64,000 nucleotides of DNA from Roseihalotalea indica (GTDB lineage: Bacteria > Bacteroidota > Bacteroidia > Cytophagales > Cyclobacteriaceae). A program made the translations under genes and the position numbers. How positions within the stretch are numbered: position 1 is the stretch's first letter; each line of letters begins with the position of its first letter. Positions 21,781-44,535 of this stretch are shown in pieces. Location: contig NZ_JAINFL010000001.1 of NCBI RefSeq assembly GCF_022458895.1, positions 1,054,001-1,118,000 of the forward strand, in the 5' to 3' direction. A model generated the notes under the pieces. That model was not told where the DNA came from and made no database searches. It saw only the letters and a program-made list of their open reading frames with translations.

Positions 21781-22257
21781 CTAATACTTAACCCTATCCT
21801 CCTTCCTCCTCCACTCATCAAACACCACCGCCCCTTCTCCTTGCGCCAGCTGTAGAAACTCAATATCCCGCTCCTCCCAGGACCGATTCACCTCCTGATA
21901 AAGCCATTCATCATCAAACTGCCCCCGGGCCGCATCCTGCCGGGTAGCCGCAAACACAATCCGGGCAATCCTTGCCCAATAGATAGCCCCCAGGCACATG
22001 GGGCAAGGCTCACACGAGGTATACAACGTACACCCATCCAGCACGAAGGTATCCAACTGCTGGCAGGCATCGCGGATGGCATTAACCTCGGCATGGGCGG
22101 TAGGGTCGTGACTGGAAGTAACCCGGTTTTGCCCTCTCCCGATGATCTTTTGATCACGCACGACGATGGCTCCGAACGGCCCGCCCAGGTTCGATTGCAT
22201 CCCTTCCCGCGCCAGCTCAATGGCGACCGAGATAAAATAAGCATCGTTCTTTTCCAT
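21781..22257 (-). CDS. Guanine deaminase-like nucleoside deaminase
   Basis: Zinc deaminase of the cytidine/deoxycytidylate superfamily, probably converting guanine to xanthine. The motifs are PTAHAEVNAIRDAC (zinc His and catalytic Glu) and TSCEPCPMCLGAIYWARI (two zinc Cys). The N-terminal GGPFGAIVVRDQKIIGRGQN is typical of guanine deaminase. I chose the ATG at 22257 (MEKNDAYF). The frame runs 62 codons further upstream, but that part is Arg/Gly/Cys-rich and unlike the family. 158 residues fits. tRNA adenosine deaminase is the main alternative. Confidence 0.9.
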   Translation of the reverse strand: MEKNDAYFISVAIELAREGMQSNLGGPFGAIVVRDQKIIGRGQNRVTSSHDPTAHAEVNAIRDACQQLDTFVLDGCTLYTSCEPCPMCLGAIYWARIARIVFAATRQDAARGQFDDEWLYQEVNRSWEERDIEFLQLAQGEGAVVFDEWRRKEDRVKY

Positions 22258-22412: not shown

Positions 22413-22748
22413 AGACCGGTAAGCCACAGTTCCGGTTGCCCAAACAATAGCATTTGACCCGTCAAATACGATTCATCCGGCTGAACCAATGACGGATGAC
22501 CGGTCAAGGATGATTGATTTGCTGAAACGAACTGTATATGACCGGTCGAATGCGCTTCATCCGGGAAAATAGATCGCGCATGACCAGTCAAGAATGATTC
22601 GTTTTGGCGAACGAAGAACAGATGACCGGTCAAATAAAATTCATCCAAGAAGATATTTCATTCATGACCCGTCATATCACAATTATTTGAGCGAACGAAC
22701 TATACATGACCCGTCAAATTACGTTGATTTGGTGAAAAGTAGTATTGA
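22413..22748. repeat. Eight-unit tandem array, exact 42-bp period, each unit led by a TGACCGGTCA-type palindrome
   Basis: Units begin at 22413, 22455, 22497, 22539, 22581, 22623, 22665 and 22707, always 42 bp apart. Unit heads are AGACCGGTAA, TGACCCGTCA, TGACCGGTCA, TGACCGGTCG, TGACCAGTCA, TGACCGGTCA, TGACCCGTCA and TGACCCGTCA. The bodies alternate between an ATTCATCC type (units 2, 4, 6) and a TTTG..GAACGAA type (units 3, 5, 7), giving an 84-bp super-period. The minus strand reads as 14-residue repeats (DExxLTGH / NxSxLTGH) open from 22648 to 22397. Period and palindrome are direct observations; function is unknown. Confidence 0.93.
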
Positions 22749-22933
22749 TTATTGGGTATATATCTACCTAAAAATGGGTATATAAAATATAAAGCTGAAT
22801 TTTGTTATATTTTGTATCTTTTAAAGATAATAATGCTGCCTATTGGTTCAAGTTGATTTTTTGACAATATTGTGAGATGGGTTACTGGTAACTTGAGCCG
22901 TTGCTTTTGTGATTCAACGGAAACCTTGGGTAG

Positions 22934-22961
22934 CTCAGAGTCCTCTTCGAGTGACTCTGAG
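22934..22961 (+). repeat. REP-like palindrome, copy 1
   Basis: Arms CTCAGAGTC and GACTCTGAG around CTCTTCGAGT. It lies 23 bp before the start codon of the AT-rich nuclease-like gene. Confidence 0.88.
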
Positions 22962-22984
22962 GGGAGTCAATAAATAAATAGATA

Positions 22985-24457
22985 ATGGTATACTTTTCAG
23001 ATTATTTTAATGTAGATGAGCAAATATTGGAAGACTATGGTGCATTCAATATTTCACTGATTAACGACCTGCCATTATTTATCGATCCATTTTTACTTTT
23101 TGGTAGTGATAAATCAGAATACCAACAATTACATATAAACATAATTGAGTACTTAACTTTTCTAAAGACAAAATCGGAAGAAGGGAATATCACCGATGCA
23201 AATATCAAAAGCTGGTATAAGTTTTCAGAAGTAAGGCAAAATTGGCTTGGATACAGCTTAGTGGGAAACGGAGGAAGCGGATTAGGAAAGCAGTTTGGAG
23301 AAGCGATGTCCGCAAGTATGCATATCGTATATGATGATTTGAACAACGAGAGAGTCACAGTTTCGTCTCATTTAGAAAAGGCTGGTCTATTCCAAATAGG
23401 TGTTGGAAAAGACAATATAAGTGACTTTACCTGTAACCTCATAAAAGAATACTTAGCAGAATATACTGAGAAATTTGCAACAGAATACTTAGAACCAGAA
23501 CAAGTAAAGACCATAATGGTCAACAAAGTTTATTTTGATTACGAACTTGAAAGATGGATGCCAAAGCAGTTTTCCTTGCCATTCATTAATGGAGATTTCG
23601 TACTGCTGACTCCAAAAGACTTGTTAACTAAAGATGACAACTGGATAAATAGCAATGATTTGAAAGGCAGTTTTGAAAGCATTTGTAATGCTATTCCGAA
23701 CGACCAGTTACGCTCTGAGATACATAATTATTTTCGATCTAAAATCCCTCCTAAACCCAATAAGAAAAGACCGACTCAAAAGGAACTTTCCTTCGCTATT
23801 AATGAAACTATAAAAAAGTTTCCTGACATTCTTAAATATTATATAAAGTCTAAGGAAGAGAACAAGGTAGGTGCAAAAAATATATCTCAAAAAAGAGTAG
23901 AAGAGGTTGAAGAAGTGTTCATAAATAACGTTTCAACCCTAATTGGCGAGCTAATAGAACAAACGAATTTCTACGCAATCAATCCGAAAGGTTCTTTCGA
24001 AGAAGCTCTTGAACGAGTTGAGTTTTTGAAAGATGTAATCGAGAATAAGGATGGTTACAAACTTTTTTATTCCAAAGGAAAAGCGATTAAGAGAGAAGCT
24101 GATCTGCAAGTAATCTATCGCTTAACTTGGCATGCAACTCCATTTGATGTAAATAGAGAGGTAAATAATGGTAGAGGACCTGTTGATTATACCGTTTCTA
24201 GTGGCTCGGAAGATAAAACTTTAGTTGAATTTAAACTAGCATCCAATTCTAAATTAAAAATGAATTTAGAAAACCAGGTTGGAGTTTACGAAGCTGCTAA
24301 TAACACAAGTAAAAGTATTAAGGTCATAATGTACTTTGATGCTATTGAATTAGCTAAAGTGAATAAAATTTTAAAAGAGTTAAAACTTGAGAATAATCTA
24401 AGTATTGTATTGATAGATGCTTGTGACAATAAACCATCTGCATCAAATGTGAAATAA
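22985..24457 (+). CDS. Uncharacterised protein with C-terminal PD-(D/E)XK nuclease-like module
   Basis: 490 residues, soluble, not recognised as a named family. The N-terminal two thirds is alpha/beta with a glycine-rich loop (NGGSGLGKQFGEAM, residues ~98-112) that is not a Walker A. The C-terminal part has D401 (GPVDYTV), E415 and K417 (LVEFKLA) and Q431 (NQVGVYEAAN), the order expected of a PD-(D/E)XK nuclease. The coding sequence is clearly more AT-rich than its neighbours. It is flanked by REP hairpins just before its start and just after its stop, and preceded by the 42-bp array. Inferred to be acquired DNA; a defence role is possible but unproven. Confidence 0.7.
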   Translation: MVYFSDYFNVDEQILEDYGAFNISLINDLPLFIDPFLLFGSDKSEYQQLHINIIEYLTFLKTKSEEGNITDANIKSWYKFSEVRQNWLGYSLVGNGGSGLGKQFGEAMSASMHIVYDDLNNERVTVSSHLEKAGLFQIGVGKDNISDFTCNLIKEYLAEYTEKFATEYLEPEQVKTIMVNKVYFDYELERWMPKQFSLPFINGDFVLLTPKDLLTKDDNWINSNDLKGSFESICNAIPNDQLRSEIHNYFRSKIPPKPNKKRPTQKELSFAINETIKKFPDILKYYIKSKEENKVGAKNISQKRVEEVEEVFINNVSTLIGELIEQTNFYAINPKGSFEEALERVEFLKDVIENKDGYKLFYSKGKAIKREADLQVIYRLTWHATPFDVNREVNNGRGPVDYTVSSGSEDKTLVEFKLASNSKLKMNLENQVGVYEAANNTSKSIKVIMYFDAIELAKVNKILKELKLENNLSIVLIDACDNKPSASNVK

Positions 24458-24477
24458 TAAAAGCAACTTTCGTCCCC

Positions 24478-24505
24478 CTCAGAATCAATTGAAGAGGACT
24501 CTTAA
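24478..24505 (-). repeat. REP-like palindrome, copy 2 (degenerate)
   Basis: CTCAGAATC on the left and GAAGAGGACTCT on the right, in reverse orientation. It separates the nuclease-like gene from the GNAT gene. Confidence 0.7.
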
Positions 24506-24515
24506 ACTATTTTAT

Positions 24516-25010: not shown

Positions 25011-25019
25011 TTTTCCTCC

Positions 25020-25047
25020 CTCAGAGTCGCTCGAAGAGGACTCTGAG
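25020..25047 (-). repeat. REP-like palindrome, copy 3
   Basis: CTCAGAGTC, then GCTCGAAGAG, then GACTCTGAG: reverse orientation relative to copy 1. It lies 48 bp upstream of the transposase remnant. Confidence 0.88.
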
Positions 25048-25094
25048 CTAGCAGCCAGCTAACCTCATAATCCTATCGATAAAAAAAGAAAGCT

Positions 25095-25675
25095 TTGGCT
25101 ACCCACCGGCAACATACCGAATTGCATGAGGTGTACTTCTGTACTCTTACGTGCTACCAATGGTTGCCCTTATTAGAAGAAGCTAATGCCTATGAAGCGG
25201 TGTATACCTGGTTTGAACATCTTCAGAAAGCCAGTTGTCTTATTCTAGGCTACGTAATTATGCATTCCATGCCGGGCCTAATCATCTCCACACACTATTA
25301 TTTCCTACCAACCCGGATAAGCCGCTGAACCGGTTGGTGAGTGAAGGGAAGCGGTTTATGGCCTATGCTATTGTAAACAAGCTTAAGACCCTGGAGAAGC
25401 ATTCGCTATTACAGCAGCTTATAGAAGGAGTGCAGGTAAATGAAAGAAAGAAGGGCAAGAAGCATCAGGTCTTCCGCTTGTCGTTTGATGCTCGCCTGTG
25501 CCTTACCGAAAAGATGCTTGAGCAGAAACTAGACTATATTCACCACAACCCCGTCAGTGGTAAATGGAATCTGGTGGATGACTTTACCCGCTATCTGCAT
25601 TCCAGTGCGGCATACTATGAGCTGGGTAGTCCGAATCGGTACGTTACGCATTATCGGGAAGTGAGTGGTGAGTGA
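25095..25675 (+). pseudogene. REP-associated tyrosine transposase (RAYT, Y1_Tnp/IS200-like), frameshifted
   Basis: Two frames join into one Y1 transposase. 25095 onward gives VYFCTLTCYQWLPLL...LILGYVIM; the other frame gives PNHLHTLLFP...FMAYAIVNKL...YIHHNPVSGKW, with the HUH histidines (NHLH) and the catalytic Tyr in DYIHHNP. Removing 14 bp (CATTCCATGCCGGG, about 25262-25275) would restore GYVIM-PNHLH in one frame. The start is a TTG at 25095. REP copies in opposite orientation flank it (25020 and 25705). The break falls in the catalytic motif, so the copy is probably dead. Sequencing error is a less likely alternative. Confidence 0.87.
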
Positions 25676-25704: not shown

Positions 25705-25732
25705 CTCAGAGTCCTCTTCGAGAGACTCTGAG
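25705..25732 (+). repeat. REP-like palindrome, copy 4
   Basis: Arms CTCAGAGTC and GACTCTGAG around CTCTTCGAGA, 30 bp after the transposase stop. Inverted with respect to copy 3. Confidence 0.88.
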
Positions 25733-25770
25733 GGGGGGAGTGAAGTAAACGGTGAGTGAATTTGGAGTGT

Positions 25771-25833: not shown

Positions 25834-25861
25834 TTCAGAGTCCTCTTCGAGAGACTCTGAG
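25834..25861 (+). repeat. REP-like palindrome, copy 6
   Basis: TTCAGAGTC, CTCTTCGAGA, GACTCTGAG: one mismatch at the outer pair. Confidence 0.85.
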
Positions 25862-25895
25862 GGCGAGCGGGAGAGCATGAAACTTAATATTCCCA

Positions 25896-41796: not shown

Positions 41797-44535
41797 ATGA
41801 GCAAACATTATTTCTTTGTCCTTTTCCTATTCATCACTTTTCAGGCTTATTCACAACAATCGGAAATTCAGGGTACGGTCAAAAGTGCCACCGATGAAAT
41901 GGGGCTACCCGGGGCCACAGTCATTCTAGAAAAGACATCCGATGCCACCACCAAGGGAGTTGTTACCGATATAAACGGTAAATTCAGGATAGCTTCGGTT
42001 GATACCGGGCAATACAAACTCCGTATTCAGTTTATCGGGTTTGTGCCTCTTGAGAAGAACATCCACCTGCAAAAAAGCTCGGTGGACTTGGGTAACATCA
42101 TGCTTTCGGAAGAAACCACTACCCTGAAGGAAATAGAGATTGTAGGAAAAGTGCCGACAGGTCAGCAGCAGGGAGATACTACCCAGTTTAATGCCGGTGC
42201 TTTTAAAACCGCGCCCGATGCCAGTGCTCAGGATCTGGTAGAAAAAATGCCCGGTATTGTGATGCAGGATGGTAAGCTACAGGCCCAGGGTGAAGATGTA
42301 CAGCAGATTCTGATAGACGGAAAACCATTTTTTGCCAAAGATGTAAACGCTGCTCTGCAAAACTTACCGGCCGAAGTAATTGCCGGCATTCAGGTGTATG
42401 ACCAGAAAAGTGACAAAGCCCTGCTTAGTGGAGTAGACGATGGCGAGCGTACCCGAACCATCAATATTGTTACCAAGCCCAATCGCAGAAAAGGGCAGTT
42501 TGGTAAACTTACCGGCGGTTATGGAACCGACGACCGCTATCTGGCCGGAGCAAGTGTAAACTTTTTCAATGAAGACCGGCGAGTAACGGTAACCGGGTTG
42601 AGCAATAACGTAAATACCTTAGATTACTCGGCAGACCCCAATAACCAGGGAAATACTCAAACCCAGGATGGCATTATTAATACCAATACATTAGGCATTA
42701 ACTTTATTGACACATGGAATGATAAAATAGATGCCAGTGGAAGTTATGTCTTTACGCGCCGACGAAATGAGGGCAATCAGATCAAGATAAGAGATTACGT
42801 GCTCCCTTCGGACTCTGGGCAAATTTATACCGAGAACAGCAACAATACCACGACCCAGTATACGCATCGGGCCAATATGCGGATTGACTATAAGATCAAT
42901 GACAATAACCGTTTACTTATCCGACCTTCGGCTTCATTAGAGGAAACCAAACGCAACTCGTACTTTCTGGGTCGCACCGATTCCGAGGTCGGGCCAGTCA
43001 ACCAGACGGAAAACACCTCAACCTCTGACCACTACAATTATGACTTTACGAACAGAATGTATTACAGTCATAAATTTGGGAAGGCCGGCCGTAGTTTAAG
43101 TCTCCATCTACACACTGGTTATCATACTAACGAGGATGATAGCTACCGTTTTGCGGATAATATTTTTTACAATGCTGAAGACAGTAGTGAAACCTTAAAC
43201 CAGTATACCCGCCTGGACAGAGCCGGTTTTGACTGGGAAACCGGTATATCATATTCTGAACCATTAGGAGAACACGGAATTCTGGAAATTGAATATGAGA
43301 TTGGTAATACGTATAATGACTCTGACAAACGCACTTATGATTATTTAGAAATGACCAGCGATTATACCTTGCTGGATACGGCGATCAGTAATACGTTTAA
43401 CAGCCGGTACCTGACCCAGGAAACGGAGCTGGGTTATCAGTATAATACCGAAAAACTCAGAGTGCAGGTAGAAGCAGAGTACCAGCATGCCAGCCTGCTG
43501 AACGAACAGTTATTCCCCCGCGACTATGATATGGATCGCACCTTCCGTAGCGTGCTTCCGTCGGCCCGGGTTGATTATAAATTCTCAGAGAACAAAAATA
43601 TTGAATTCAACTACCGCACCTGGACCAACGAGCCTTCCGTAGGCCAGTTGCAGGCTGTAATTGATAACTCCAATCCCCTTCAGCTCCGAACTGGTAATCC
43701 AAACCTTGATCAGTCGTACAATAACTGGATAAGAACCCGGTATAAGGCGCACAACCCGGAGACAAATCAGTCCTTCTATGCTTCGGTACAAAGCAATATC
43801 ACCCAAAACTATATATCTAATCAAACTTATATTGCCGAGCAGCCTACGGAAGTTGAAGATGGCATAGTATTAGAAAAAGGCTCTCAACTCACTCAACCAG
43901 TTAATGTGAATGGCTACTACGATATACGCTCCTACGTTAGCTACGGCCAGCCGCTGGAAGGTATCAAATCCAATATTCATGTGGGGGGTTCGGTTCGTTA
44001 TTCCAGAAAACCCGGTTTGATCAACAATGAAACCAACCTGGCGAATGCCAGTAGCTTTGGGTTAGGTGCCTCGCTTAGCAGTAATATCAGCGAGAAGGTC
44101 GATTTTAGAATCTCCACTCGATCAAGCTATAATGTAGTAGAGAATTCACTGCGCCCGGTATTGAATAATAATTACTTTGTGCAGCGGACTCACCTGCGGT
44201 ACAGCTGGATTCTCTGGGAAGGATTGGTATATCGTACTGACCTTAGGCATCAGTTAAATTCCGGGCTTTCTGCTGGCTTTGATAATAGCTACATGCTTTG
44301 GAACATGAGCCTCGGAAAGAAGCTGTTTAAAAATCAGTTAGGCGAAATCAGCCTCAATGTATATGACCTGCTGAAGCAAAACAATAACATCAGACGAAAT
44401 ATTGCGGAGGCTTACGTGGAAGACGTTCAATCCAACGTATTGCAACGGTATTTCATGCTGACGTTTACCTACAACCTGCGCCATTTCAGTGAAGGCACCA
44501 GCGTAGATGATTACGAAGAACTATACCGAAACTAA
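41797..44535 (+). CDS. TonB-dependent receptor-like outer-membrane protein (CarboxypepD_reg + OMP_b-brl_3)
   Basis: 912 residues. Signal peptide (1-~20, ending AYSQ), then a carboxypeptidase-regulatory-like beta-sandwich (residues ~22-100, IQGTVKSATDEMGLPGATVIL). A plug-like segment contains DLVEKMPGIVMQDGKLQAQGEDVQQILIDGKPFF. A large barrel of the OMP_b-brl_3 type then runs to the end. There is no SusD partner. Substrate unknown. Convergent with the DUF5009 gene. Confidence 0.88.
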   Translation: MSKHYFFVLFLFITFQAYSQQSEIQGTVKSATDEMGLPGATVILEKTSDATTKGVVTDINGKFRIASVDTGQYKLRIQFIGFVPLEKNIHLQKSSVDLGNIMLSEETTTLKEIEIVGKVPTGQQQGDTTQFNAGAFKTAPDASAQDLVEKMPGIVMQDGKLQAQGEDVQQILIDGKPFFAKDVNAALQNLPAEVIAGIQVYDQKSDKALLSGVDDGERTRTINIVTKPNRRKGQFGKLTGGYGTDDRYLAGASVNFFNEDRRVTVTGLSNNVNTLDYSADPNNQGNTQTQDGIINTNTLGINFIDTWNDKIDASGSYVFTRRRNEGNQIKIRDYVLPSDSGQIYTENSNNTTTQYTHRANMRIDYKINDNNRLLIRPSASLEETKRNSYFLGRTDSEVGPVNQTENTSTSDHYNYDFTNRMYYSHKFGKAGRSLSLHLHTGYHTNEDDSYRFADNIFYNAEDSSETLNQYTRLDRAGFDWETGISYSEPLGEHGILEIEYEIGNTYNDSDKRTYDYLEMTSDYTLLDTAISNTFNSRYLTQETELGYQYNTEKLRVQVEAEYQHASLLNEQLFPRDYDMDRTFRSVLPSARVDYKFSENKNIEFNYRTWTNEPSVGQLQAVIDNSNPLQLRTGNPNLDQSYNNWIRTRYKAHNPETNQSFYASVQSNITQNYISNQTYIAEQPTEVEDGIVLEKGSQLTQPVNVNGYYDIRSYVSYGQPLEGIKSNIHVGGSVRYSRKPGLINNETNLANASSFGLGASLSSNISEKVDFRISTRSSYNVVENSLRPVLNNNYFVQRTHLRYSWILWEGLVYRTDLRHQLNSGLSAGFDNSYMLWNMSLGKKLFKNQLGEISLNVYDLLKQNNNIRRNIAEAYVEDVQSNVLQRYFMLTFTYNLRHFSEGTSVDDYEELYRN

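Follow-up and report, generated by a model that had tools for sequence, protein, structure and literature searches.

Genomic Context of the Array

The array lies in Roseihalotalea indica, within the 64-kb stretch of DNA that was analyzed here (the window), between two divergent genes, that of a deaminase on the minus strand and that of a 490-aa protein on the plus strand (Table 1). The 490-aa protein had a partial match to the phage-defence candidate model PDC-M36A. The GC content was 55% in the gap on the deaminase side, 43% in the array, and 33% in the next 236 bp and in the gene for the 490-aa protein, which agrees with the AT-rich cassette that an earlier note, made from the sequence alone, had placed next to the array. 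Pfam families were found for four of nine neighbouring ORFs (GH97, deaminase, MPAB-like, and AraC-like) and not for the other five. The AraC-type gene was located about 4.4 kb from the array, and no replication initiator gene was among the families of the nine ORFs scanned.

Table 1. Features of the array, its neighbourhood and the two look-alike arrays. Positions are those of the window unless a locus (L304, L305) is given.
Feature	Position	Strand	Remark
Deaminase gene of the cytidine/deoxycytidylate type, pointing away from the array	21781..22257	-	Pfam PF00383, 1.3e-28
TAnnTTTG word, putative -7 box of the deaminase gene	starts 22269	-	based on the motif alone; shuffles of the intergenic stretch give 0.57 such words
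Degenerate first unit, AGACCGGTAA	22413..22454	+	36-52% identical to the other units
Seven 42-bp units, conserved core and drifted 32-bp body	22455..22748	.	0.4 (core) and 1.88 (body) substitution steps per column, no indel
Core 1, TGACCCGTCA	22455..22464	+	
Core 2, TGACCGGTCA	22497..22506	+	exact palindrome
Core 3, TGACCGGTCG	22539..22548	+	
Core 4, TGACCAGTCA	22581..22590	+	
Core 5, TGACCGGTCA	22623..22632	+	exact palindrome
Core 6, TGACCCGTCA	22665..22674	+	
Core 7, TGACCCGTCA	22707..22716	+	
490-aa AT-rich accessory gene	22985..24457	+	PADLOC 4.4e-24 to PDC-M36A, residues 5-250
REP-like repeats, TCAGAGTCCTCTTCGAGTGACTCTGA and relatives	22931-22963, 24474-24506, 25018-25050, 25708-25737, 25835-25863		
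G855 look-alike array	L304 8932-9225		seven units of CATTTGACCNGTCAAATG type, two near-identical
G787 look-alike array	L305 9199-9408		five units of GCTGACCGGTCAGC type

REP-like repeats bracket the gene for the 490-aa protein, the ORF that follows it and a split ORF, but not the array; one of them lies between the array and the gene for the 490-aa protein. The split ORF (25095-25675) consists of two overlapping frames. We take it to resemble a REP-associated transposase, and it had no Pfam match.

Fifteen plasmid records, from Sinorhizobium, Bradyrhizobium, Rhizobium, Paenarthrobacter, Roseomonas, and Janthinobacterium, carry homologues of the 490-aa protein. In none of the five of these records that were examined was a 42-bp array among the three strongest periods. 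The upstream gene overlapped the homologue or left 8 to 86 bp in three of the four annotated records; in the fourth, 523 bp were free upstream, and the fifth record examined was unannotated. The array is therefore probably not part of the system of the 490-aa gene, and this candidate explanation was dropped. Among viral contigs, 20 stretches matched the peptide pattern of the 490-aa protein, none of which was confirmed as a relative. The AT-rich cassette seems to be unrelated to the array, with the 490-aa gene a bystander.

Organization of the Repeat Units

Seven copies of the word TGACCNGTC were found on the plus strand between 22455 and 22707, with a start-to-start spacing of exactly 42 bp, confirming the strict period described in the earlier note. 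They are the only copies on the plus strand of the window, for which 0.52 would be expected by chance, with a maximum of 3 in 60 trials of first-order random sequence derived from the window. On the minus strand, apart from the array's own palindromic copies, a lone copy was located at 42156, a number as expected by chance. One step (42 bp) before the first full unit lies a degenerate one. The eight units and seven exact intervals counted before are thus obtained if this worn unit is admitted, since only six intervals join full units.

Each unit has a near-palindromic core, the centre of which is the strongest dyad of the window unit. The full palindrome TGACCGGTCA, which had been ascribed to every unit, was present in two of the eight only. 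The core motif is directional, TGACC-N-GTC, in which position 5 is always C and position 6 is variable, and all cores of the array are in one orientation. The step of 42 bp corresponds to a whole number of helical turns, that is, four turns at 10.5 bp.

The bodies have diverged, as had been noted before. Their mean identity between units was 48%, compared to 27% for shuffled bodies, indicating that they are related but drifted, which is presumably why Tandem Repeats Finder did not report the array in the window. The strongest self-match lags of the array stretch were 84, 168, 42, and 126 (lags 10-179 compared), and unit pairs of the same parity were 53% identical, against 45% for opposite parity. 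The two alternating body types proposed before, with a super-period of 84 bp, can be retained as a tendency, strict alternation being weak (P = 0.086 over all unit orders).

Apparent Constraint on the Core and Unit Length

The seven full units gave a shortest tree with 4 substitution steps in the 10 columns of the core and 60 in the 32 columns of the bodies. This amounts to 0.4 vs. 1.88 steps per column, a core about five times slower than the bodies, and a 10-column block this slow was obtained in 0.9% of column permutations (P = 0.009). No indels were seen in the array, where 7.6 were expected from the ratio of 45 indels per 380 substitutions in 1,860 aligned noncoding bases of related genomes (P = 5e-4; both the ratio and P are approximate, as the comparison pairs partly overlap and the array was noticed for its regularity). 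Apparently, the array is constrained in length and conserved in its core, while the sequence of the spacers is free.

Spacing of the Core Word in Other Loci

Pattern scans with free spacing listed 232 loci, made up of at least 120 stretches of genome contigs and 112 stretches of viral contigs. Among the matches listed, at least three TGACCNGTC words shared one exact step in 158 of the 232 loci, and 171 held at least three at one step within 1 bp. The length of the exact step took many values across these loci. Bodies were at least 65% identical, or the period was shorter, in 124 of the 158 listed loci with an exact step; the remaining 34 had drifted. The smallest period was 29-59 bp in 88 loci among the matches listed, most of them inside stop-free frames and 19 outside stop-free frames of 300 nt. 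The body of the window array was not found in 18 free-spacing loci that were compared by eye.

The 19 listed noncoding loci, collapsed by hand into 15 families, gave R = 0.39 and p = 0.10 at 10.5 bp per turn, and the same families gave p = 0.03 at 10 bp and p = 0.006 at 9.5 bp, so that a general preference for 10.5 bp is not supported. The idea that all palindromes face one side of the helix is consistent with the window array itself, where the exact 42-bp steps fit four turns, but found no significant backing in these free-spacing arrays.

Two further arrays, both in reversed orientation, combine drifted bodies with cores of TGACCYGTC type, one with a step of 52 bp in Arsenicicoccus bolidensis (L056 313-572) and one of ~45 bp in a Pleurocapsa MAG (L051 7625-7890). 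Both belong to other phyla and are located outside stop-free frames of 300 nt.

Occurrence in Related Genomes

Relatives were approached through a Parabacteroides locus, which led to the phylum Bacteroidota, and then more closely through the deaminase, glucose-6-phosphate isomerase and a 981-aa protein. The nearest genomes, based on identity of the deaminase (G903, 70%; G919, 69%; G881 and G837, 67% each), together make up one genus of the collection searched (4/4). No array was seen upstream of the deaminase gene in these four, and a pattern of three units matched none of them (0/4) anywhere in the genome when as many as 3 mismatches were allowed; arrays worn further, or built on another word, would escape this search. 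The array is thus either specific to its lineage or so worn in relatives that it no longer matches.

Among 390 genomes of the order, a fixed 42-bp pattern, with up to 3 mismatches, matched 5, vs. 8 for a reversed-pattern control; among 196 genomes of the family, it matched 4, vs. none for the control (the order and family sets overlap). Among the nine matching genomes, only G787 and G855 contained look-alikes, and G509 contained a conserved array. The other six (G664, G702, G583, G868, G830, and G883) were rejected, since they showed either a period below 42 bp (21 or 28 bp) or one match due to chance. The search of relatives for the unit consensus that the earlier note had suggested thus yielded two 42-bp look-alikes and no orthologous array. 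Partly overlapping DNA amounting to 1.42 Mb, drawn from the window, from parts of G855 and G837, and from other loci, was scanned for periodicity. The scan returned 12 regions, namely the arrays of the window, G855 (twice, in overlapping loci), G787, and G509, a 21-bp array of G509, and six regions in open frames of at least 765 nt. Among the titles and abstract openings listed from the literature, none reports an array of this kind in Bacteroidota.

These results bear on the main rival to a constrained array, the neutral decay of an old tandem duplication without present function. An amplified 42-bp segment would then be wearing away, and its core would look conserved by chance or through unequal exchange. 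Such a history fits bodies that still share ancestry, a pattern absent from the four nearest genomes, and the many different exact steps at which the core word recurs in the free-spacing loci listed (158/232). It does not fit the uneven distribution of change along the unit (P = 0.009) or the missing indels (P = 5e-4), and we regard it as unlikely, though deserving more weight than the other alternatives.

Look-Alike Arrays and Insertion Sites

The arrays of G855 and G787 resembled that of the window in having the dyad at the same unit column, a 42-bp step and drifted bodies, with word and step selected by the search pattern itself, which imposed both. They differed from it in the flanks of the core. 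Bodies were unrelated between genomes (identity 0.24 to 0.33). A slight excess was found for the window and G855 on the plus strand (0.329 vs. at most 0.325 in 27 rotations), and the other five comparisons were within their rotations. The core was not significantly slow in G855 (P = 0.38), and in G787 the effect was marginal (P = 0.08). No homologue was returned when proteins were searched with the G787 frame.

The G855 array is part of a segment of ~2.6 kb (L304 8609-11203), which also carries an ORF with a sub-threshold Mrr_cat match and is absent from G774 between the same two genes. At that site in G774 (L311), the DUF4385 gene and the gene for a 457-aa protein are separated by 65 bp. In G889 (L310), ~9 kb were found there, mostly other DNA, with ~0.25 kb in common with G855. 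These length differences between the same genes point to an insertion hotspot.

The G509 array (L306 9047-9508) comprised eleven well-conserved 42-bp units starting GACTAGTC, just downstream of a two-gene system with a best match to PDC-M62A/B and weaker matches to Septu models. A drifted 21-bp tandem array of CCGCGGTGATTGATGCGCTTT type was located at L306 13402-13737, between ORFs of at least 100 aa. An association of such arrays with defence genes, suggested by the position of the G509 array and by the Mrr_cat match next to that of G855, was considered but not retained; neither gene beside the G787 array has a match in Pfam or PADLOC, and the array beside the PDC-M62/Septu-like genes of G509 is a well-conserved tandem array.

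A hotspot of this kind would accord with a mobile-element or REP/BIME-like array, the palindromes of which were placed or amplified by a transposase or recombinase, and the REP-like repeats that bracket neighbouring genes in the window point the same way. Those repeats are, however, unrelated to the array in sequence and lie outside it, the core word recurs only once, in isolation, on both strands of the 64 kb, and no related DNA was found in plasmids or phages. An origin by mobile elements is accordingly judged improbable.

Folding and Coding Potential

The folding energy of the window array was below that of shuffled sequences (z -3.0 for the plus and -5.4 for the minus strand), as would be expected for a structured RNA, a hairpin array transcribed from one strand. 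With the cores kept and the bodies shuffled, the excess dropped to z -0.6 and -2.4, respectively, so that it is mostly due to self-complementary cores pairing with one another. In G855 and G787, it persisted under the same treatment (z -3.5 to -5.2) because the palindromes extend beyond the 10-base core. The window core alone would allow ~3 stem pairs, and Rfam had no matches in the window; we give a structured RNA a slim chance.

Since 42 bp is also 14 codons, the earlier note had read the minus strand as 14-residue repeats containing LTGH, and several plus-strand units as MTGQIKFI-type repeats. Among the seven full units, the LTGH frame is mostly open, its two stops falling in the units that start at 22623 and 22665, and the DRS frame of the plus strand has one. 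MTGQIKFI itself occurs in one unit only, contrary to that reading. Stops were found in all six frames, about as frequently as in the column-shuffle null. Among the same units, body identity did not differ by codon position (P = 0.77), and when the letters of each column were redealt among units and peptides compared in six frames, no frame was conserved beyond its column make-up (z -0.42 to 1.03). A search of ~5.8 billion proteins with the minus-frame peptide returned one word-sharing candidate and none at an E of 0.01 or better. Judging from the translations, the LTGH and MTGQ readings would arise because the palindrome spells L/M-T-G on both strands. The mostly open LTGH and DRS frames, and a plus frame open across the G855 units, would speak for a 14-residue repeat protein whose gene is decaying. 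Such a gene is very improbable given identities that do not differ between codon positions, z of at most 1.03, stops as frequent as in shuffles, and the lack of a homologue at this E value. The result is a warning that an array of palindromes with a step that is a multiple of three can mimic a repeat protein on both strands.

Proposed Interpretation as a Protein-Binding Array

A conserved core and a conserved unit length, together with six frames showing no coding signal, favour the reading as DNA sites over that as a repeat protein, in line with one of the two alternatives of the earlier note. Our preferred, though tentative, explanation, which falls a little short of an even chance, is that positions 22413-22748 hold a length-constrained, non-coding array of near-palindromic dyads, seven full and one worn, which are candidate binding sites for a protein. 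Each core may be a dyad gripped by a dimeric DNA-binding protein. With 42 bp equal to four helical turns, the dimers would be placed on one face of the DNA, where their alignment would permit cooperative binding or bridging. Lying between the deaminase gene and the acquired gene for the 490-aa protein, the array might then serve as a patch with a regulatory or chromatin-like role. If the phase is truly selected, the array would be a natural ruler, in which spacers of fixed length and free sequence report the requirement for sites on one face.

A broader and far more speculative proposal, which we consider improbable, is that the arrays of the window, G855 (in an insertion hotspot), and G787 are three independent examples of an undescribed class of intergenic arrays of Bacteroidota. 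Such a class would combine TGAC-type dyads and species-specific flanks with a strict 42-bp step and free spacers, and a putative dimeric protein would build on it a one-sided cooperative filament or a loop anchor.

Comparison With Known Systems

REP and BIME arrays also consist of palindromes at regular spacing in intergenic DNA, but the word of the window array does not resemble the neighbouring REP-like repeats, and BIME members are described as alternating in orientation (PMC2817692), whereas the window cores all point one way. The core letters TGACCGGTCA are shared with operators of the TetR type in Thermus (TTHB023 / TTHA0167). The TetR-family repressor TTHA0167 is reported to bind promoter sites bearing TGACCGGTCA with a KD of 1.2 and 1.9 nM (PMC7022988). 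This finding establishes no more than the ability of such a dyad to serve as an operator; no TetR protein has been linked to the array in the window.

CRISPR arrays likewise have a constant length of repeat plus spacer, but in the window array the core is only ~10 bp and the bodies are related to each other, and no Cas model was matched by the four neighbouring ORFs scanned with PADLOC. The window array resembles operator and iteron arrays in being intergenic and in having a short dyad that recurs at a fixed step, always in the same orientation. It differs in its step of 42 bp, longer than the roughly 20 bp of iterons, and no replication gene or array-tied regulator is among the annotated neighbours.
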